From an uncultured Mucilaginibacter sp. (GTDB lineage Bacteria > Bacteroidota > Bacteroidia > Sphingobacteriales > Sphingobacteriaceae): a stretch of DNA of 64,000 nucleotides. The position numbers and the translations under genes were made by a program. The notes under the pieces were generated by a model. That model saw nothing but the letters and a program-made list of their open reading frames with translations, ran no database searches and was not told where the DNA came from. Positions 8,893-27,348 of the stretch are shown one piece after another; position 1 is the stretch's first letter, and each line of letters opens with the position of its first letter. The stretch covers positions 1 to 64,000 of the forward strand of contig NZ_CAMLHX010000010.1 in assembly GCF_946479965.1 (NCBI RefSeq). The letters run 5' to 3'.

Positions 8893-9918
8893 ATGATAAA
8901 GGCCTTATTTTCAGCTATTGCTTTTTTGCTTTTAACAGCTTATGCACACTCACAAGTTGTTAAAGGCACTGTAGTTGATGCCACAACCGGCAACCCTATT
9001 CCTAATGCAAGTGTTTATTTAAAAGGATTATCAAAAGGGACCACCTCAAATACAAAGGGTGAGTTTATATTATATACCGATGAAGCCAAAACACCATTAA
9101 TTGTAAGCAGCCTGGGTTATCAGGCAGATACAATAGGTAATTACAACGGCAAAACTCTAACGGTAAAATTAAGTCCACGCGCCCAGGTTTTACGTGAAGT
9201 GGTTATTGGAGATAAGAGCCGGGAAAAGTATATGAAAATGTTTTTAACCCAATTCATTGGTTCACGCAACGGAGATTGTATAATAATTAACCCGGAGGTT
9301 ATCAACTTTACTTATCATAAACGCACATTAGCAGCTAAGGCAAACCAGCCATTGATCATTCACAACAAAAAACTGGGCTATAAGATCACTTATTTTCTGT
9401 CAGCTTTTTCGTATGCGCGAAGATCAACTCCAAATCAAACATCATATAAAGGCAATTATGTTTTTGCAGAGGATACATTGGACCTAACGCCGGACGAGAT
9501 AAAAAAAATACACCAGGCGCGTGATGAGGCCTATTATGGATCGAGAATGCATTTTATACGTTCAGTATGGGCAAATGACCTGAAAAAGACCAATTTTTTT
9601 TACGACTATGCTAACATTAATTTTGCCTTTAATAATATAAGAGCTAATAAGGAAAAATTATTAAAAGATACATGCATTACCACCCTCGTGAACAGCATAC
9701 ATCATTTTATGGAATTTCCTTGTATGGTTATTAGGTATAACGGCGGTAATGAGTCGCACCTAAGTTTTCAAAACGGGACTAAAGATAATCTGATAACTCC
9801 CGGTAGTTATAACGAAAGTAACCTGATATGGAGCGGTAGAATGGGCGGGCAACGGGTAGGAGATTTGTTGCCGATTGATTTTGAGCCTTTGGAGCAGGTA
9901 TCAAAACCAGATAAGTAA
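8893..9918 (+). CDS. Carboxypeptidase-regulatory-like domain protein, paralogue 2
   Basis: This 341-residue protein is a tandem duplicate of the preceding gene: the same signal peptide, regulatory domain (VVKGTVVDATTGNPIPNASV) and C-terminal motifs (INFTYHKR, AYYGSRMHFIRSV). Identity is high through the first 200 residues. Relative to paralogue 1 it lacks short blocks in the C-terminal half (around ARRSTPNQ and after SVWANDLKK). The pair is separated by 9 bases and is probably one transcript. Divergence in the C-terminal half suggests specialisation or loss of constraint after duplication. Confidence 0.8.
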   Translation: MIKALFSAIAFLLLTAYAHSQVVKGTVVDATTGNPIPNASVYLKGLSKGTTSNTKGEFILYTDEAKTPLIVSSLGYQADTIGNYNGKTLTVKLSPRAQVLREVVIGDKSREKYMKMFLTQFIGSRNGDCIIINPEVINFTYHKRTLAAKANQPLIIHNKKLGYKITYFLSAFSYARRSTPNQTSYKGNYVFAEDTLDLTPDEIKKIHQARDEAYYGSRMHFIRSVWANDLKKTNFFYDYANINFAFNNIRANKEKLLKDTCITTLVNSIHHFMEFPCMVIRYNGGNESHLSFQNGTKDNLITPGSYNESNLIWSGRMGGQRVGDLLPIDFEPLEQVSKPDK

Positions 9919-9975: not shown

Positions 9976-10172
9976 CGTTTCACTAACAAGTGTAAAACTG
10001 TGTTTTTTACAATAAACTGAAAATAAGTTAATTAAGAAGGTTTTACAGCTAATTTTCCTGACGAATAAGTAGTTTCACAGTGTTTCACATAAAATTTTAA
10101 CTTGTTTATTATCAACTGTTTATTTAGAATAGCGTTTTATCCGTTTCATTTTGTTTCATATTCATGTGAAAC
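9976..10172 (+). repeat. Word-repeat element A (word GTTTCAC)
   Basis: The element is bounded by CGTTTCAC (9976-9983) and its inverse GTGAAACG (10165-10172). The family core, containing CCTGACGAATAAGT, is at 10045-10070. GTTTCAC follows at 10072 and 10082, and GTTTCAT at 10143 and 10153, each pair spaced 10 bp. TTAATTAA lies at 10028-10035. It shares core and layout with elements at 19589-19792 and 26591-26793, which use different words. It sits between convergent genes, 57 bases past a same-strand stop. Nature unknown. Confidence 0.75.
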
Positions 10173-10180
10173 GGAACACT

Positions 10181-12100
10181 TCAGAAATAGTACCTTTTAA
10201 AGGCCTCCATAGCGGCGTATTCGGCAAAACCCAGGCGGTCGTATTGCTCTGCGGTTTCGCGGTTACGGTCCTCTGCCCGCTGCCAAAACTCCCGCCGGTC
10301 CTCACCCGGAAACACCGCCGGGTCCTTCTGGCTTTGGTGCTTAAATATGGCATAACGCTTACGCAACACCTCATCCGGCGATAAGGGCACGGCCATTTCT
10401 ATCTCGTGGGTTTCAAACTCAAACCAGGCGCCGCGGTACATCCACAGCCAGCAATCGGCAACCCAGGTTTCGGCTTGGCGCAAACGGCGCAGGGCCTCAA
10501 CCACTATGTTAAAACAAACTATGTGGGTGCCATGCGGGTCGGCAAAGTCGCCGGCAGCAAACACCTGGTGCGGTTTTATCTCCTGCAGCAGCTCCATTGT
10601 AAGGCGGATATCTTCATCGCTAACGGCATTCTTCTTCACCTTGCCCGTCTCGTAAAAAGGCAGCGCCATAAAGTGGATATGGTCGTCCTTCAAACCGGCG
10701 TACCGGGCACCCGCTAACGCTTCGGTTTTGCGGATAAAGCCCTTTACGTCGCGGATTTCGCGACTATCGGGTTGGTTGGGTTGTTTTTGGGCGATGAACG
10801 TGCGCATATCGGTATAAGTGCTTTGAAGCCTGGCTGCGTTGGTTCCCATCCGCTCATCAAAATCAATAGCAAATTCAACGTAGCGTAACACATCGTCATC
10901 CCACACAGCCGTATTGCCCGATGTTTGGTAGGCCACATGCACATCATTACCCTGATCAACCAGGCGCATAAACGTGCCACCCATTGATATAACATCATCG
11001 TCAGGGTGTGGCGAGAAGATAACCGAACGTTTCTGCGCAGGTTCTGCCCGCTCCGGCCGCTGGCTGTCATCAGCGCCCGGCTTACCGCCGGGCCAACCGG
11101 TAATGGTATGTTGTATCTGGTTAAATATGTCAATATTGATATCATAAACCGGGCCCTGCTCTACGGCCAACTGCGCCATGCCGTTGTTATTGTAATCTTC
11201 GGCAACCAGCTTTAAAATGGGTTTGCTTACGTATTCGGCCAGCCATATTACGGCTTTCTTTTTCAGTTCGTTATCCCACACGCAGTCCTTTACCAGCCAT
11301 GGGGTTTTAAAGCGGGTAAGCTCCGAAGCGGCAGGCTCATCTAAAATGAATTCCACGTTGTCAGAAAGCTGCAAATAAGTAGCCGGCACTTCAGATGAGA
11401 CCTCGCCCTCTACGGCCTTTTTAACAATAGGCGCCTTCTTACTGCTCCATGCCATCAGGATGATCTCACGCGCCTTAAATATAGTGCCTATACCCATGGT
11501 GATAGCCTTGGTAGGCGCGTTCTGCTTGCCGCCAAAATCGCGGGCAGCATCGGCGCGGGTCATGTCATCTAAAGTTACCAACCGCGTGCCTGAGTTGGGC
11601 GCCGAGCCGGGCTCATTAAACCCGATATGCCCTGTACGGCCGATGCCTAATATCTGCAGGTCGAGCCCGCCCAATTCTTCTATCTGCTTTTCGTAGTTCA
11701 AACAAAAGTTAACTATCTCGTCTTGTGTAAGGGTGCCATCCGGTATATGGATATTATCACGGTCAATATCAATATAATCAAACAACTGCTCATTCATAAA
11801 GCGCACATAGCTTTGCGCGGCTTCGGGTTGCATGGGGTAATATTCATCCAGGTTAAAGGTGATAACGTTTTTAAAACTTAAGCCTTCCTCCTCATGCAGG
11901 CGCACCAGTTCTGCATAAACCGCAACGGGTGTTACGCCGGTTGCCAGGCCCAGCACCGCGTTTTCACCTTTGGTTTGTTTGCCACGTATCAGCCCCGCTA
12001 TTCGCCCGGCTACCGCTACGGATGCTTCGGCAGGCGTGGCATAAACGGTGACGGGCAGCTTCTCGTAACGGGTTTCTTCTAATAAATTTAATCGGGCCAT
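10181..12100 (-). CDS. nagB: Glucosamine-6-phosphate deaminase fused to a PIG-L/LmbE-type deacetylase
   Basis: The 639-residue protein starts at the ATG at 12100 (MARLNLLEE); an upstream in-frame ATG adds 16 residues without family support. Residues about 15-270 are NagB: GLATGVTPVAVY, NLDEYYPM and the catalytic region GIGRTGHIGFNEPG. Residues about 375-630 are a PIG-L-type zinc deacetylase with SPHPDDDVISMGG and a DPHGTH metal-ligand motif. NagB converts glucosamine-6-phosphate to fructose-6-phosphate and ammonia; the C-terminal half probably removes an N-acetyl group from an amino sugar. The fusion is typical of Bacteroidota. It is divergent from anmK, consistent with peptidoglycan or amino-sugar recycling. 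Confidence 0.93.
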   Translation of the reverse strand: MARLNLLEETRYEKLPVTVYATPAEASVAVAGRIAGLIRGKQTKGENAVLGLATGVTPVAVYAELVRLHEEEGLSFKNVITFNLDEYYPMQPEAAQSYVRFMNEQLFDYIDIDRDNIHIPDGTLTQDEIVNFCLNYEKQIEELGGLDLQILGIGRTGHIGFNEPGSAPNSGTRLVTLDDMTRADAARDFGGKQNAPTKAITMGIGTIFKAREIILMAWSSKKAPIVKKAVEGEVSSEVPATYLQLSDNVEFILDEPAASELTRFKTPWLVKDCVWDNELKKKAVIWLAEYVSKPILKLVAEDYNNNGMAQLAVEQGPVYDINIDIFNQIQHTITGWPGGKPGADDSQRPERAEPAQKRSVIFSPHPDDDVISMGGTFMRLVDQGNDVHVAYQTSGNTAVWDDDVLRYVEFAIDFDERMGTNAARLQSTYTDMRTFIAQKQPNQPDSREIRDVKGFIRKTEALAGARYAGLKDDHIHFMALPFYETGKVKKNAVSDEDIRLTMELLQEIKPHQVFAAGDFADPHGTHIVCFNIVVEALRRLRQAETWVADCWLWMYRGAWFEFETHEIEMAVPLSPDEVLRKRYAIFKHQSQKDPAVFPGEDRREFWQRAEDRNRETAEQYDRLGFAEYAAMEAFKRYYF

Positions 12101-12215
12101 GGTGCAGCAGGTTAATTGGATGCTATGTGGTTCAACAAATATCAACAATTATTGATTTAACTTTTGCGGTTGCAGCGGCAAATCGCTAATTTTAAGCAAC
12201 GCTTCTGTAGAGGCA

Positions 12216-19001: not shown

Positions 19002-19565
19002 ATGAGAGGTGGTTTAGTGAGGATGGCCCTGGCCGTCGCCTTAATGATTATAGTGAGTAACGAGGCGATGGCTCAGGGGTACCATCAATTAACACCATCT
19101 GATTTTCAGGGGATACCCAAACCGCGCATGATGGGCCATGTGGCCTACACCAATTGCACTATTGATTTTAAATACAGAGCGTATCGCGATAAAGACGGTG
19201 CTTACCGCTTGTATGCTACTGTGCAACTGTTGCTTAACCGCGACCGCTGTTGGTTGGATACCAGGAGTATGCGTTCTAAAGAAATGCTGGATGAAGTGCT
19301 TAACCATGAGCAGGGCCATTATATAATTGCCTATATGGAGCAGCAGGAACTATTACGCCAGATAAACCGCACTTCTTTTACCGCCAATTATAAGGCCGAG
19401 GCCATGCAATTGTTTGACACAGTGGATGCCAAATTCAAGGAGCTTAACCAAAATTACGAGACAGGTACACAACATATGCAGAATAAGGCACAGCAGCGCA
19501 GTTGGGATGACTACTTTAAACAGCGGTTGGAATATGCGCCGCCTTTGGCTCAAAACGGTTATTAA
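19002..19565 (+). CDS. Secreted DUF922-like zinc-protease-type protein
   Basis: The 187-residue protein has a signal peptide (MALAVALMIIVSNEAMAQ) and an HEQGH motif in EVLNHEQGHYIIAYMEQQELL, matching the HExxH zinc signature of the DUF922 family of predicted secreted metalloproteases. The start may be 19002 or, better for a signal peptide, 19023. Upstream of the motif is a beta-rich region including YTNCTIDFKYRAYRDKDGAYRLY. Substrate unknown. A word-repeat element (19589-19792) begins 24 bases after the stop. Confidence 0.82.
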   Translation: MRGGLVRMALAVALMIIVSNEAMAQGYHQLTPSDFQGIPKPRMMGHVAYTNCTIDFKYRAYRDKDGAYRLYATVQLLLNRDRCWLDTRSMRSKEMLDEVLNHEQGHYIIAYMEQQELLRQINRTSFTANYKAEAMQLFDTVDAKFKELNQNYETGTQHMQNKAQQRSWDDYFKQRLEYAPPLAQNGY

Positions 19566-19588: not shown

Positions 19589-19792
19589 TTGTTCCGCTGC
19601 CGGAACAAAATTAGTGCATTTCGTAAGTATATTGATAGTGAGTTGATTAGACTGCAATTACAGCTAGGTTTCCTGACGAATAAGTTGCTTCGCTTTGCTC
19701 CGGTCAGAAAATTAATATGCTGGATATCAGTTAATTAAAAATTACTTGCTCCGCTTTGCTCCGATTGTTTCACTCACACCAAGCTGAGCAAA
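19589..19792 (+). repeat. Word-repeat element B (word TTGCTCCG)
   Basis: The family core (CCTGACGAATAAGT) is at 19659-19684. It is followed by TTGCTTCG (19684) and TTGCTCCG (19694), then TTGCTCCG at 19745 and 19755, each pair spaced 10 bp, and a closing inverse GAGCAA (19785-19790). About 68 bp upstream of the core is a hairpin GTTCCGCTGCCGGAAC carrying a related word. TTAATTAA is between the word pairs here, not before the core. It lies between convergent genes, just after a same-strand stop. Confidence 0.68.
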
Positions 19793-19803: not shown

Positions 19804-22332
19804 TTACAATCCCTTTTTTCTTGTTATCCCCGGTTTTCTTGATCTTTTGGTTTCTACAGAGCCGAAACCCTCGGCACCATATTGCCGCGCCATTTTGGCT
19901 ATGCGGTCCTCCAAACTTTCGGTGGTTAAGCGCTCACGGCCTAAACTATCCACCATTATCGGAAATGCGAAAGGGGTAGGGCGCTCAATTGTTTTAAGTA
20001 CTATGCTTTGTTTGGCAATGCGCTGTAGCGCTGCCCGTAATCTGAACTCTTCTAACTGAAATGCCAAAGCCTCGTTGTATGCCTGCCGTACCAAAAGATT
20101 ATCGGGCTCGTACTCGCTGAAAACTTCAAATAATAAGGAAGAAGATGCCTGCAAATGTCTATTCTTTACCTGCTGCCCGGGGTAACCTGTAAACAACAGA
20201 CCGCCTATATGAGCAATGTCCCTGAAGCGGCGACGGGCCATTTCGTTGGCGTTAAGGCTGTGCATTATATCGTCTAACAGGTTATCAATAGAAAAGAACG
20301 AGGCATCCTCCAGTACTTCTTCAATAGGCACATCTTCATCAGTAAGCAGCTCAAAGCCGTAATCATTCATCGCGATAGAAAAGCTTGCGGGTCTGGTACG
20401 CGATATGCGGTAGGCCAGGAGCGAGGCCATTCCCTCGTGCACCAGTCGACCTTCAAAAGGGTAGAACAGCAAATGGTGCCCCTCACGCGACTTAAAAGAC
20501 TCGATCAAAAACTCGTGGCTCCGCGGTAAGTGCGATAACTCCTGCTGCAAAGCGAACAAGGGCTTTAGGGCTTTTACCTCCTCATCCTGCTCAATACCGT
20601 TTGCCACCTCATCTAACTTATCTCTTAATACGGCTGATAACTGTGATGATAGGGGCATCCTGCCACCGTTCCAGCTCGGTATCATACCCTTTTTCGCGGT
20701 TGATTTTTTGACGTAGGCCGACATGTCTTTCAATCGCACAAACTCCAAACTGCGCCCTGCAAACCAAAAGGTATTGCCGGGCTTTAGTTTAGATATGAAG
20801 GATTCTTCTACAGTACCCAGGCTGCCGCCGCTCAACCACTTAACCCGCACGCTCATATCGCTGGTAATGGTGCCGATGCTCAGCCGATGGCGCATGGCCA
20901 CCCTGCGACTATTTACTTTATATAAACCATTCTCAACCTCTACCTTCAAAAATTCATCGTATTGTGCCAGCGTTTTGCCACCGTTAACAATAAAATCAAG
21001 CAACTGGTTAAACTCACCGCGACTCAAATCTGCAAAGGCATAGGTGGTTTTTACTTCATCAAATAGTTTATCCGCCCTGAAACCGTCGGATACTGCTAGT
21101 GTTACCATGTACTGTATCAGCACATCCATGGTAAGTAACATCGGGTCGCGGCTTTCAAATATGCCGCGCTTAAGGGCTTCCTTTAGAGCGGCACCTTCCA
21201 ACAGTTCCAACGAATGCGTTGGTACAAAGTATGCTTTGGATATAGCGCCGGGATGGTGCCCGCTACGCCCGGCCCGCTGCATAAATCGTGCAACGCCTTT
21301 TGGGCTTCCCACCTGTATTACTGTGTCCACCGGTCTAAAATCCACCCCCAAATCAAGACTGGAAGTGCAAACAACTACTTTAAGCGCCTCGGCGTGGAGT
21401 GCCTGTTCAACCCAATTACGCAACTCATTATCCAATGATCCGTGGTGCATGGCCATAATGCCGGCGTACTCAGGATAGTTGTCTAAAATGGCATGATACC
21501 AGATCTCAGACTGCGACCGCGTATTGGTAAATATCAGCGTGGTTTTGCTTTTGGCTACCAGCTCCATTACTTGGGCTATCAGTTTAACACCGATGTGACC
21601 CGCCCACGAGTAATTTTCAATATTTGGCGGGATAACCGATTTTATAACCAACTTCTTATCAATATTGGCGCGAATCAATTTTACTTTATCCGGTGCAAAG
21701 TTGTTCCCTAATAGCACTTCTCCCGCTTGTTCAAGATTGCCGATTGTAGCGCTAATGCCCCAGATTCTGAGTTGGCCGGCTACGCCAATAGCCTTAAGTC
21801 GGGATAATCCCAACTCCACTTGTACGCCGCGTTTGGTGCCTAGTAGCTCGTGCCACTCATCAACCACCAAAACCTGTAGACTTTTAAATATGGCGGGGTA
21901 TTCCTTTTGGGCAAGCATTAAATGCAGGCTTTCCGGCGTGGTGAGCAGAACTTCCGGAAGTTTCTTTTTCAGCGCGGCTTTCTCGGCTGCGGAGGTGTCG
22001 CCGGTTCGCGTGGCAATTTTCCATGGCAGTTCCAGGTCATCGCAAACCTCCTGCATGGCTTTGCGGATATCATTGGTGAGTGCCCGTAGCGGGGTTATCC
22101 ACAGCATTTGTAGCCCGTTGTTTTTGCGGGTTTTGTAGTCAGGGTTTTTGTTGATGAAGTCAGCCAGAAAAGGGAGAAACAATGCGAATGTTTTGCCACT
22201 GCCGGTAGGCGCGTTCAACAGACCCGAATAACCTTCAAGGTAAGCAGCTTCCATTTCTTTTTGAAATGGGAATTGCTTCCAGTTTTTTTGGCGATACCAT
22301 TGTTGAATAACTTTTTGGCCAGGCGTACTCAT
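19804..22332 (-). CDS. Lhr-like DEXH-box helicase of the ligase-associated DNA repair type
   Basis: The 842-residue superfamily 2 helicase has Walker A APTGSGKTFALFLPFL near residue 40, the motif II box VVDEWHELLG, SATIGN (motif III), and the motif VI region QRAGRSGHHPG. A long C-terminal region follows, including HLPRSHEFLIESF and SFSIAMNDYGFELL, as in Lhr-core proteins. It most resembles the helicase found with an ATP-dependent DNA ligase, an exonuclease and a phosphoesterase in bacterial DNA-damage cassettes. None of those partners is adjacent here. It probably unwinds DNA-RNA or DNA substrates during repair. Confidence 0.88.
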   Translation of the reverse strand: MSTPGQKVIQQWYRQKNWKQFPFQKEMEAAYLEGYSGLLNAPTGSGKTFALFLPFLADFINKNPDYKTRKNNGLQMLWITPLRALTNDIRKAMQEVCDDLELPWKIATRTGDTSAAEKAALKKKLPEVLLTTPESLHLMLAQKEYPAIFKSLQVLVVDEWHELLGTKRGVQVELGLSRLKAIGVAGQLRIWGISATIGNLEQAGEVLLGNNFAPDKVKLIRANIDKKLVIKSVIPPNIENYSWAGHIGVKLIAQVMELVAKSKTTLIFTNTRSQSEIWYHAILDNYPEYAGIMAMHHGSLDNELRNWVEQALHAEALKVVVCTSSLDLGVDFRPVDTVIQVGSPKGVARFMQRAGRSGHHPGAISKAYFVPTHSLELLEGAALKEALKRGIFESRDPMLLTMDVLIQYMVTLAVSDGFRADKLFDEVKTTYAFADLSRGEFNQLLDFIVNGGKTLAQYDEFLKVEVENGLYKVNSRRVAMRHRLSIGTITSDMSVRVKWLSGGSLGTVEESFISKLKPGNTFWFAGRSLEFVRLKDMSAYVKKSTAKKGMIPSWNGGRMPLSSQLSAVLRDKLDEVANGIEQDEEVKALKPLFALQQELSHLPRSHEFLIESFKSREGHHLLFYPFEGRLVHEGMASLLAYRISRTRPASFSIAMNDYGFELLTDEDVPIEEVLEDASFFSIDNLLDDIMHSLNANEMARRRFRDIAHIGGLLFTGYPGQQVKNRHLQASSSLLFEVFSEYEPDNLLVRQAYNEALAFQLEEFRLRAALQRIAKQSIVLKTIERPTPFAFPIMVDSLGRERLTTESLEDRIAKMARQYGAEGFGSVETKRSRKPGITRKKGL

Positions 22333-25414: not shown

Positions 25415-26518
25415 CTATACCTTGATAACTATATTCCGCTTATACAATATACGCATCAGCCCCCAAATTATAAAAACCAGCAGCAGCCCGCTAAGGGCAG
25501 ATGCTACATAAGGTAAAAAATATGGTTCAAAAACCCATTGATAGAGGTTTTTGCCTCTTACATGTATTTTATTGGTAATGTAATGCGGAATATAGTTAGA
25601 AAGCACATAGGCCGTTATGGCGTTTACACCTAAGGGTACAAAGAACATAGCGACTTTTTTATGGCCCTGCACATCAATTAACCAGTAACAGAGGGCCAGT
25701 GCTACGGCTGCCCAGCCACCGGTGTACAAAACAAACGAGCTTGTCCACAAGGCTTTATTGAGGGGGAAGAGCAATCCCCAAAGCAGCCCGGCAACTATTG
25801 CCGTAAAGCCATATATAAATAACCAGCTTACTTTAACAGCGTCATCGCAGTCCTTGCGTTTTAGCCAGCTGCCAACTCTTATGCCAAACAAACAGGTTGC
25901 AATTGCCGGCAAAGTGCCCAATAAACCTTCAGGATCCCAGGTTTTTGACTCAGACCATAAATGGTTGGTTGAGAATACCACGCGGTCAACCCAGGCGCCC
26001 ATATTGGTCTCCGGGTCGAGGCTTGCTTTGCCGGTATCGGGTACCGGTACAAACACCATTAAAATGTAGTACCCAATAAGCGATGTGGCGAACAGTACAT
26101 CGCGAGTTTTTTGTGTTGTTTTAAGATAGATAAGCGTGCTTATAAAATACACAACACCAATGCGCTGCAGCACCCCGGGAAAACGCAAATGGGCAAAACC
26201 GGGATGAAAAAGCGATTGTGTTATCAGGCTGATGATGATCAAGATTAGCATGCGCCTGAAGGCACTCCATAACATTTTTGAGTGGTTAGCCTTTACTTCG
26301 GCCTTGCTTTCCATAGCATAAACTATAGATACACCTACTATAAATAGGAAGAAGGGAAATATCAAATCGGTAGGGGTACAGCCATTCCAGGCAGAGTGTT
26401 CAAGCGGGGCGTAAATATGCCCCCAGTCGCCGGGGTTATTAACCAATATCATGGCAGCAACCGTTGCACCCCGGAAAACGTCGAGCGAAAGCAGGCGGGG
26501 TTTGGTGATTGCAGTCAT
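25415..26518 (-). CDS. NagX-like / heparan-alpha-glucosaminide N-acetyltransferase-like membrane protein
   Basis: The 367-residue protein begins RLLSLDVFRGATVAAMILV and continues NPGDWGHIYAPLEHSAWNG, then TPTDLIFPFFLFIVGVSI. These motifs mark the DUF5009/HGSNAT-like acyltransferase family. About ten membrane helices follow, ending in IYKRNIVIKV. The early histidine in HSAWNGCTPTDL is the likely transfer residue in this family. It may move acetyl groups across the inner membrane to a sugar; a link to the amino-sugar genes at 10181-13505 is only suggestive. Monocistronic, preceded by word-repeat element C. Confidence 0.87.
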   Translation of the reverse strand: MTAITKPRLLSLDVFRGATVAAMILVNNPGDWGHIYAPLEHSAWNGCTPTDLIFPFFLFIVGVSIVYAMESKAEVKANHSKMLWSAFRRMLILIIISLITQSLFHPGFAHLRFPGVLQRIGVVYFISTLIYLKTTQKTRDVLFATSLIGYYILMVFVPVPDTGKASLDPETNMGAWVDRVVFSTNHLWSESKTWDPEGLLGTLPAIATCLFGIRVGSWLKRKDCDDAVKVSWLFIYGFTAIVAGLLWGLLFPLNKALWTSSFVLYTGGWAAVALALCYWLIDVQGHKKVAMFFVPLGVNAITAYVLSNYIPHYITNKIHVRGKNLYQWVFEPYFLPYVASALSGLLLVFIIWGLMRILYKRNIVIKV

Positions 26519-26590: not shown

Positions 26591-26793
26591 AGTGTTGCAG
26601 AAATATATAGCAACAATTGCAACACTTGCAACAGTACTATTTATTAATAGGCTGATTATCATTTTGTTATATTTTCTACATGCAACACTTCGCAACAGAC
26701 TTATTCGTCAGGAAATTTAGCTGTAGAAATGATGTAAAATTCTAAATATCAGTTAATTAAAACTACAAGCAAAATTATACATAATTGCAACAC
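26591..26793 (-). repeat. Word-repeat element C (word AGTGTTGCA)
   Basis: On the minus strand this element starts with AGTGTTGCA (26785-26793) and ends with the exact inverse (26591-26599), a 9-bp terminal inverted repeat. The family core is at 26699-26724. GTTGC words follow at 26691-26696 and 26681-26686 (10 bp apart), then at 26627-26632, 26618-26623 and about 26610. TTAATTAA is at 26753-26760. The layout matches element A closely. It begins 55 bases past the stop of gtrA on the same strand and fills most of the 329-base gap before the NagX-like gene. Confidence 0.75.
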
Positions 26794-26847: not shown

Positions 26848-27348
26848 TCAATTTTCTTTTTTAAGATGAAGGATATCTTCCTTTATCTTAAAAAAGAAAT
26901 GCGTTTGCATCATATAATTTATAACTGTGATAATTACTGTAGCGGTGATCTTGGCCGCAGTAGGGTAAAGATGGAGGTATTCTACAAAAATTTTAATAAA
27001 TACAACGTTTAGTACTATGCATAGTATGTTTACGGCTATAAACCTGTACAATTGAACACTTCTTTTTAACCCGGATTCTTTAAAGACTATATACCGGTTT
27101 AAATAAAAACCTGTGCAGAAAGAGATGGGGAACGAAAGGAAAAACGACGCAATATAAGGGCTTAAGGTAATTTGTCCGAGATGAAAATCCTGCTTCGTAA
27201 AAATAAAATTATAACAAACGGAAAACAGAATAATATCAAACGCCGTGTTTCCGCCGCCGCAGGCTGCATAGCGGAACGTATGTAGCGGGATCCATTTTTT
27301 AAACGGACCGTAAAAAAAATCAATAAAATTAAATATGAGCTGCCTCAA
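26848..27348 (-). CDS. GtrA-family membrane protein
   Basis: The 166-residue protein has four membrane helices: TAFDIILFSVCYNFIF, PYIASFFLSFPISFCTGFYL, FIAVNILCIVLNVVFIKI and AAKITATVIITVINYMMQ. It also has the family pattern FYLNRYIVFKES after helix 2. GtrA proteins are thought to move lipid-linked sugars or assist glycosyltransferases in cell-surface polysaccharide synthesis. The C-terminus is basic and Phe-rich (THFFFK). It follows the beta-CASP gene with a 32-base gap and may be co-transcribed with it, although their functions are unrelated. Confidence 0.88.
   Translation of the reverse strand: MRQLIFNFIDFFYGPFKKWIPLHTFRYAACGGGNTAFDIILFSVCYNFIFTKQDFHLGQITLSPYIASFFLSFPISFCTGFYLNRYIVFKESGLKRSVQLYRFIAVNILCIVLNVVFIKIFVEYLHLYPTAAKITATVIITVINYMMQTHFFFKIKEDILHLKKEN

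Follow-up and report, generated by a model that had tools for sequence, protein, structure and literature searches.

RIB/BIME-1 elements of E. coli consist of two opposite REPs placed around an IHF site, as described in the parts of the sources used here (PMC2817692; Boccard and Prentki 1993). Correia/NEMIS elements of Neisseria are intergenic, about 100-160 bp long and bounded by inverted ends, with a longer form carrying an IHF site, according to the excerpt of PMC2229807 that was available. In the window, which means the whole stretch of 64,000 nucleotides that was analysed, three intergenic elements of about 200 bp (A, B and C) were present, and no description of such elements was found in the open-access literature. 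They were built on a repeated heptamer, or word, of the form TG-NNN-C(A/G). The general layout ran from one or two left end words (W-1, W0) through AT-rich DNA holding a bend-like site, the core, the pair W1 and W2 (10 bp spacing), a second bend-like site, and W3, W4 and often W5 (9 bp spacing) to the inverted end word W6'. The features of the three copies are given below with the evidence for each in brackets; R2 is the longer of two sequence-only models and was trained on 18 copies, A, B and C included.

9976..10172, + strand: element A, word GTTTCAC/GTTTCAT (R2 match 9994-10149, E 1.4e-24)
8893..9918 (+) and 10181..12148 (-): ORFs whose 3' ends flank element A
9976..9982, + strand: left end word W0 of A, CGTTTCA (sequence, repeat listing)
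10045..10070, + strand: core of A, ACAGCTAATTTTCCTGACGAATAAGT (sequence, core scan)
10071..10087, + strand: words W1 and W2 of A, spacing 10 bp (sequence, repeat listing)
10110..10122, + strand: candidate right bend-like site of A, TATCAACTGTTTA (fit to WATCAANNNNTTR, which we take to be the IHF consensus)
10142..10158, + strand: words W3 and W4 of A, spacing 10 bp (sequence, repeat listing)
10166..10172, - strand: inverted end word W6' of A, GTGAAAC (sequence, repeat listing)
19589..19792, + strand: element B, words TGTTCCG, TGCTTCG and TGCTCCG (R2 match 19608-19757, E 4.6e-22)
19002..19565 (+) and 19804..22332 (-, helicase): ORFs whose 3' ends flank element B
19660..19685, + strand: core of B (sequence, core scan)
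19686..19702, + strand: words W1 TGCTTCG and W2 TGCTCCG of B, spacing 10 bp (sequence)
19747..19763, + strand: words W3 and W4 of B, both TGCTCCG, spacing 10 bp (sequence, repeat listing)
19784..19790, - strand: inverted end word of B, CTGAGCA, the reverse of TGCTCAG (sequence, repeat listing)
26591..26793, - strand: element C, word TGTTGC(A/G/T) (R2 match 26618-26766, E 2.7e-22)
26848..27348 (-) and 25415..26518 (-): ORFs beside element C, which lies downstream of the former and upstream of the latter
26786..26792, - strand: left end word W0 of C, TGTTGCA (sequence, repeat listing)
26699..26724, - strand: core of C (sequence, core scan)
26681..26697, - strand: words W1 TGTTGCG and W2 TGTTGCA of C, spacing 10 bp (sequence, repeat listing)
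26609..26633, - strand: words W3 TGTTGCA, W4 TGTTGCA and W5 TGTTGCT of C, spacing 9 bp (sequence, repeat listing)
26593..26599, - strand: inverted end word W6' of C, TGCAACA (sequence, repeat listing)

An earlier note on this DNA had placed three elements at these positions around a shared core, and both points held: CCTGACGAATAAGT was found without mismatch once in each element and nowhere else in the window, and with up to three mismatches it gave 13 matches against a shuffle mean of 3.93 (sd 2.03), with none of 100 shuffles reaching 13. The length of 26 bp given for the core was too short, the sequence identical in A, B and C being ACAGCTANNTTTCCTGACGAATAAGT. The word order described in A was confirmed, with GTTTCAC/GTTTCAT starting at 9977, 10072, 10082, 10143 and 10153 and the inverted GTGAAAC at 10166, and C had the same order plus an inverted TGCAACA. 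The inverted ends were found in A and C but were weak in B, the least regular copy (TGTTCCG, TGCTTCG, three TGCTCCG, TGTTTCA and inverted CTGAGCA). The 71 bp given for the distance between the two word pairs of A was atypical, the value being 64 in C, 61 in B and 63-65 in related genomes. The left bend-like site, read from the sequence, was degenerate in all three copies, and the three copies carried three different words. No fourth element was found in the window, where the best next R2 match had an E of 0.057. The ORF 10181-12148 (-) next to A joined a glucosamine-6-phosphate isomerase domain and a PIG-L deacetylase domain in a single frame.

Extent and layout of the family

The first sequence-only model, R1, was built from eight copies and matched 18 of 149 genomes of one Bacteroidota genus at E <=0.001, while R2 revealed relatives of the window elements in 28 of the 149 at E <=1e-4. 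At the latter limit R2 also matched 15 of 399 family genomes, all of which belong to the genus list, and 2 of 395 class genomes, one of which is in the genus. The copy numbers per genome are lower bounds and were at least 19 in 9 genomes, 18 in G599, 15 in G321 and 1 to 9 in the other seventeen. Weaker R2 matches (E about 1e-5 to 1e-3), some of them possibly due to chance, showed word pairs and an inverted word in G516, G284, G459, G477, G549 and G429; these features were not convincing in G257 and G574, and the sequence of G032, a weak match of the class scan, was unread.

An approximate core was found at 5 places in the 399 family genomes against 1 for the reversed-pattern control, and only L024 among them had the full layout, carrying a new word; the core matches at L025-L028 were judged by eye to be chance. 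In the 149 genus genomes there were 8 places against 4 in the control, with the layout present in L024, L029, L030, L033 and L034; the core matches in L025, L031 and L032 were judged chance, and L031 nevertheless had an element elsewhere. The exact core matched one viral contig (L001), which showed no layout in the 501 bases read, and 18 stretches of genome contigs, which were judged chance because their lineages were scattered (sequences unread). Among plasmids, 23 records gave short weak matches at an E limit of 10, and none covered 80% of the query.

A detector of four words sharing one triplet gave 140 hits in 1.73 Mb, mostly chosen because it was element-bearing, and 0 hits in the same sequence reversed; since both strands and overlapping registers are counted, the hits correspond to at most about 70 places. 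The claim that words agree within a copy beyond chance was borne out by this result, the agreement being weak in B, which the detector missed while recovering A and C. A search of G381 for an exact word-pair pattern returned 74 hits against 0 in the control; they formed 40 clusters, three of which were read by eye as coding matches, so that in this genome the pair occurs almost solely in elements.

The distance from W1 to W3 in G381 was 63 bp in 27 of 30 elements and 64 bp in the other 3, and that from W-1/W0 to W6' was 211-213 bp in 21 of 30; AT spacers drifted while the word spacing stayed rigid. The terminal inverted words, W-1/W0 against W6', were found in A, C, G381 and G568 and were weak in B. 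Among the 27 in-register G381 copies read by eye, 17 had CTGAC and at least 6 had no recognisable core, some of these holding a sequence like CTAAAGTTTTTGTAC instead; words without the core are the converse of core without words, which the earlier note had named as the finding that would count against its idea. With up to one mismatch allowed, 20 of the 27 copies had WATCAANNNNTTR at one constant left offset (13 exact) and 19 had it at one constant right offset (3 exact) on the reverse strand. The best forward-strand offsets held 14, 12 and 6 of the 27, and the other listed offsets 3 at most. These AT-rich sites at fixed offsets resemble IHF/HU bend sites.

Several arrangements were seen beside the ordinary layout. 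On G381 contig C14, L173 held at about 510-610 an unbroken array of TGTTCCG-type words at intervals of about 9-10 bp that lacked both core and spacer; the word was that of the left end of element B and the arrangement was different. In G568, L075 and L076 had an extra 132-bp module directly beyond the left element end, 88% identical between the two, and a similar piece lay near an element on G620 contig C165. The TGTCCC/TGTACC subfamily of G321 (L106, L107, L113 and L116) carried TTAGTGTA in direct orientation immediately outside both ends in several copies. All element matches on G381 contig C16 (369 kb, L125-L143) lay within 156.8-364.3 kb, and the first 156 kb gave no significant match.

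Word usage across genomes

The triplets found in the words included TTT, TTA, TTG, TTC, CTC, ATC, ATT, TAC and TCC, and there were several genomes in which almost every sampled copy carried the same words. TTT stood at every word found in the eight parsed copies of G627, ATC in almost all of the nineteen rows of G381, and mostly TTT in the four copies of G599, while G568 and G620 had mixtures of TTT and TTA. Seven of the eight G606 copies had TTT with some TTA and one had ATT; the seven G623 copies had TTT from W2 onward, with ATT or ATC in some left words. Two word classes were present in G321, and in G477 the slots were unlike (TCC in W1, W3 and W6', TTT in W2). The word table took only words with T as the middle triplet letter, and unparsed copies were dropped, namely L085 and L104 of G381, one of nine G627 loci and one of five G599 loci. 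The words had been called element-specific in the earlier note, which fits the window and partly G321, but not G381, G627 and G568/G620, where one or two words were shared.

G568 and G620 were 92% identical over 3.1 kb at one locus and 82-98% identical in other aligned flanks. Eleven of 12 G568 loci were filled in G620, L081 being aligned on one flank only, and the twelfth (L075) had no assignment. Divergence was counted in ten pairs and word shift in eleven; L073 was filled, with its partner outside the set, and L075 was left out. In the ten pairs, spacers differed at 206 of 1690 positions, whereas words did so at 26 of 538 and the core at 1 of 116, with Fisher p values of 2.5e-7 and 1.4e-5. 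In the eleven pairs, 25 words had gone from TTT to TTA and one the reverse way (p 8e-7), with two words changed otherwise, where TTT was taken as ancestral from the words of G627 and G599, a direction set without a tree. The spacers of the same pairs served as control and had 15 changes from T to A and 18 from A to T. TTA was found in G568 at W1 in 20/21, W4 15/21, W2 10/21, W6' 7/21, W5 2/20, W0 1/21 and W3 1/21, and in G620 (each of 20) at W1 in 20, W4 19, W2 17, W6' 15, W5 11, W0 7 and W3 7. The slot order of TTA frequency was the same in both genomes, which does not make two independent results, since they share ancestry.

Such a shift could also arise if copies merely converted one another and no reader of the words existed, an explanation that is very improbable. 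The right half of L067/L207 looked exchanged (9/39 substitutions and 12 gap columns), L065/L268 differed at 8/45 positions of the right spacer, and both pairs may include exchange between copies; when L065 and L067, with nine changes, were left out, the shift still stood at 16 to 1. Five words had changed in L081/L205 and two in L072/L223, however, with only 2/45 right-spacer differences each, and conversion leaves the rigid spacing and the conservation of the core unexplained. Gene conversion was kept as a possible contributor to the shift. The only element match in G624 (contig C53 near 4.4 kb, L043/L340) lay in sequence 92% identical to G568, other G568 flanks being about 70-78% identical to G624, so this locus is a possible transfer or assembly mixture.

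Gene ends, turnover and rival explanations

Position was scored for 48 elements from G568, G381 and the window, with ORFs called mechanically. At least one neighbouring ORF ended at the element in 44 of 48, both in 23 and neither in 4; as background for the 23, these loci had 146 gaps of 100 bp or more, element gaps included, and 29 of them were convergent. A 3' end was faced by the right (hairpin) end in 31 of 48 elements, with the stop then at a median of 9 bp, and by the left end in 36 of 48, at a median of 107.5 bp; the distances are measured from the profile match, which may extend beyond the last word. Taken alone, the preference of right ends for 3' ends was not significant (p 0.059 against one half). 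The 88 flanking ORFs included Sua5, RNase H, tRNA synthetase and gyrase/topoisomerase subunit A proteins.

With the hairpin end so near to stop codons, the region might be transcribed in mRNA 3' ends and the words and end hairpin might act as RNA. RNAalifold gave a consensus of -11.9 for 17 aligned G381 copies against -0.37 in column shuffles (z -18) on the forward strand and -14.2 (z -18) on the reverse, a control that breaks up the conserved words. An RNA role is nonetheless improbable. The predicted pairs were mainly those of the end hairpin, the word copies are direct repeats 9-10 bp apart that are unable to pair mutually, W5 and W6' often disagreed in G568/G620 (e.g. L072, L073 and L074), and at gathering thresholds Rfam gave no match anywhere in the window. 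A further point against it is that genes run into the element from the left or from the right, so that the RNA would come from one strand or the other. Phage lambda attP has direct arm repeats, IHF bends and a core, and the arm-like direct repeats, bend-like sites and core of the elements recall it, as they might if the elements were relics or copies of integrase attachment sites. Here there are many copies, dozens in G381 alone, the core is optional, being absent in at least 6 of 27 G381 copies, and no integrase family was seen among the 25 most frequent of 146 families in the 88 flanking ORFs, so that an origin of this kind is hardly credible.

The elements could also be non-autonomous and mobile, like MITEs or REPINs, with the words bound by a recombinase supplied in trans, the inverted end words serving as its ends, and species-specific words arising from co-evolution of enzyme and ends; this is possible and rather unlikely. 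The inverted end words favour it, and elements came and went. Of the 14 G620 loci sought in G568, 3 were empty (L273, L274 and L275), 3 were filled (L267, L270 and L284, scored from element matches lying between the flanks) and 8 had no assignment; these are 14 of 20 loci, five others matching tested G568 loci and L271 being omitted for its repetitive flanks. The examined stretches of G568 and G381 had few element loci in common, namely L067/L143 in the same and L078/L093 in opposite orientation; G381 and G321 shared L094/L113 in the stretches examined. RAYT transposases and REPs co-evolve in a similar way, so far as the portion of PMC2817692 used here describes it. Against mobility, however, flank repeats were at chance level (mean best 3.07 against 2.86 in 30 G381 elements, a value reached by 10% of shuffles, and 3.14 against 3.16 in 37 G568/G620 elements), and no duplication was visible at the three empty sites, which had ragged edges and other sequence replacing the element (an inverted repeat pair in L274). 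No recurrent mobile gene stood among the same 25 families, and words and core were constrained at fixed places. Y1_Tnp was present in 11 of 12 genomes rich in elements and in 9 of 12 that had none, and of 30 examined Y1_Tnp loci (1.5 kb each side; more such places exist) not one contained an element, on which ground RAYT was rejected as partner. The earlier note's suggestion of mobility is thereby weakly supported by the differences in presence and absence and not by the flanks, and the target-site duplications that it proposed to look for at filled and empty loci did not appear above chance. Turnover exists, and the classical transposon signature is absent: of MITE traits, terminal inverted repeats were found and target-site duplication was not. 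Since elements were gained or lost between related species, they are not indispensable.

Two other observations concern neighbouring repeats. The only Y1_Tnp gene seen near an element lay 1.6 kb away (G381 contig C17, 105.6 and 107.3 kb), which is too distant for flanking. Other palindromic repeats, perhaps of the CGTC-tagged REP kind, stood beside or in place of elements in G568 at L312 1680-1870 and L077 5190-5240 (GCGTCATTGCGAG...CTCGCAATGACGC; AAGCGTCTACGCTTG...CAAGCGTAGACGCTTG).

Proposed reading and comparison with known systems

Each element may be a DNA platform on which a word-reading protein and a DNA bender form a higher-order complex, a reading that we put forward tentatively, as just short of evenly balanced. 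The earlier note had already thought of a protein-binding site, which suits the shared core, the agreement of words within a copy, the near-helical spacing and the inverted end words. A dedicated protein would bind the TG-NNN-C(A/G) heptamers, and an IHF/HU-type protein would fold the DNA and bring the word pairs together; no word-reading protein was found in this analysis. At the 3' ends of genes the complex could affect DNA topology or a transcription boundary, as RIB/BIME-1 may. If the preference of the reader drifted, the sites of the genome would follow, giving species-specific words and the one-way change from TTT to TTA, and spread to new places would be a separate, rarer process. Many sites tracking one reader is the simplest reading, because words, core and spacing are conserved, spacers drift and words move one way. 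A wider claim is that of a chromosome-wide system in which a fast-evolving DNA-binding protein gives each lineage its own triplet code at gene ends and, across the sampled elements of G568 and G620, TTT is rewritten to TTA in place, slot by slot and in a single order; we regard it as doubtful. The family offers a bacterial example in which the specificity of a DNA-binding protein and its numerous sites in the genome seem to shift jointly, one stage of this being visible between two related species, and if the reader were found its binding code could be checked against the words of each species.

Among known systems, REPINs and their RAYTs likewise have many copies per genome, sequences differing by species, and a motif and partner thought to co-evolve, as given in the part of PMC2817692 drawn on; in contrast, the 30 Y1_Tnp loci had no RAYT beside an element, and the words are direct repeats instead of palindromes with a tag. 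Correia/NEMIS elements are also intergenic with inverted ends and an IHF site, where the elements here have an IHF-like one, but their ends are 24 bp long and come with target duplications in the available excerpt (PMC2229807), whereas here no duplication was found and the internal words repeat the end word. Judged from sequence, the defining features of RIB/BIME-1 and Correia appear either to fail or, for IHF binding, to rest on fit to the consensus.

RIB/BIME-1 share with the elements the dispersed intergenic mosaic build, an IHF or IHF-like site between repeated motifs and the location at gene 3' ends, so far as PMC2817692 and Boccard and Prentki (1993) were available, and the location was found here in the 44 of 48 elements noted above. 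The differences are that REP palindromes and a REP pair are absent, with only a hairpin at the right end, and that at least six fixed slots are occupied by a direct heptamer whose triplet is species-specific, beside a separate core and two bend-like sites. The elements are a counterpart of RIB/BIME-1 that lacks REPs and belongs to another phylum, which opens an independent lineage to the question of how repeats with bend sites function at 3' ends, and the best explanation is that they work like RIB/BIME-1 but differ in build.
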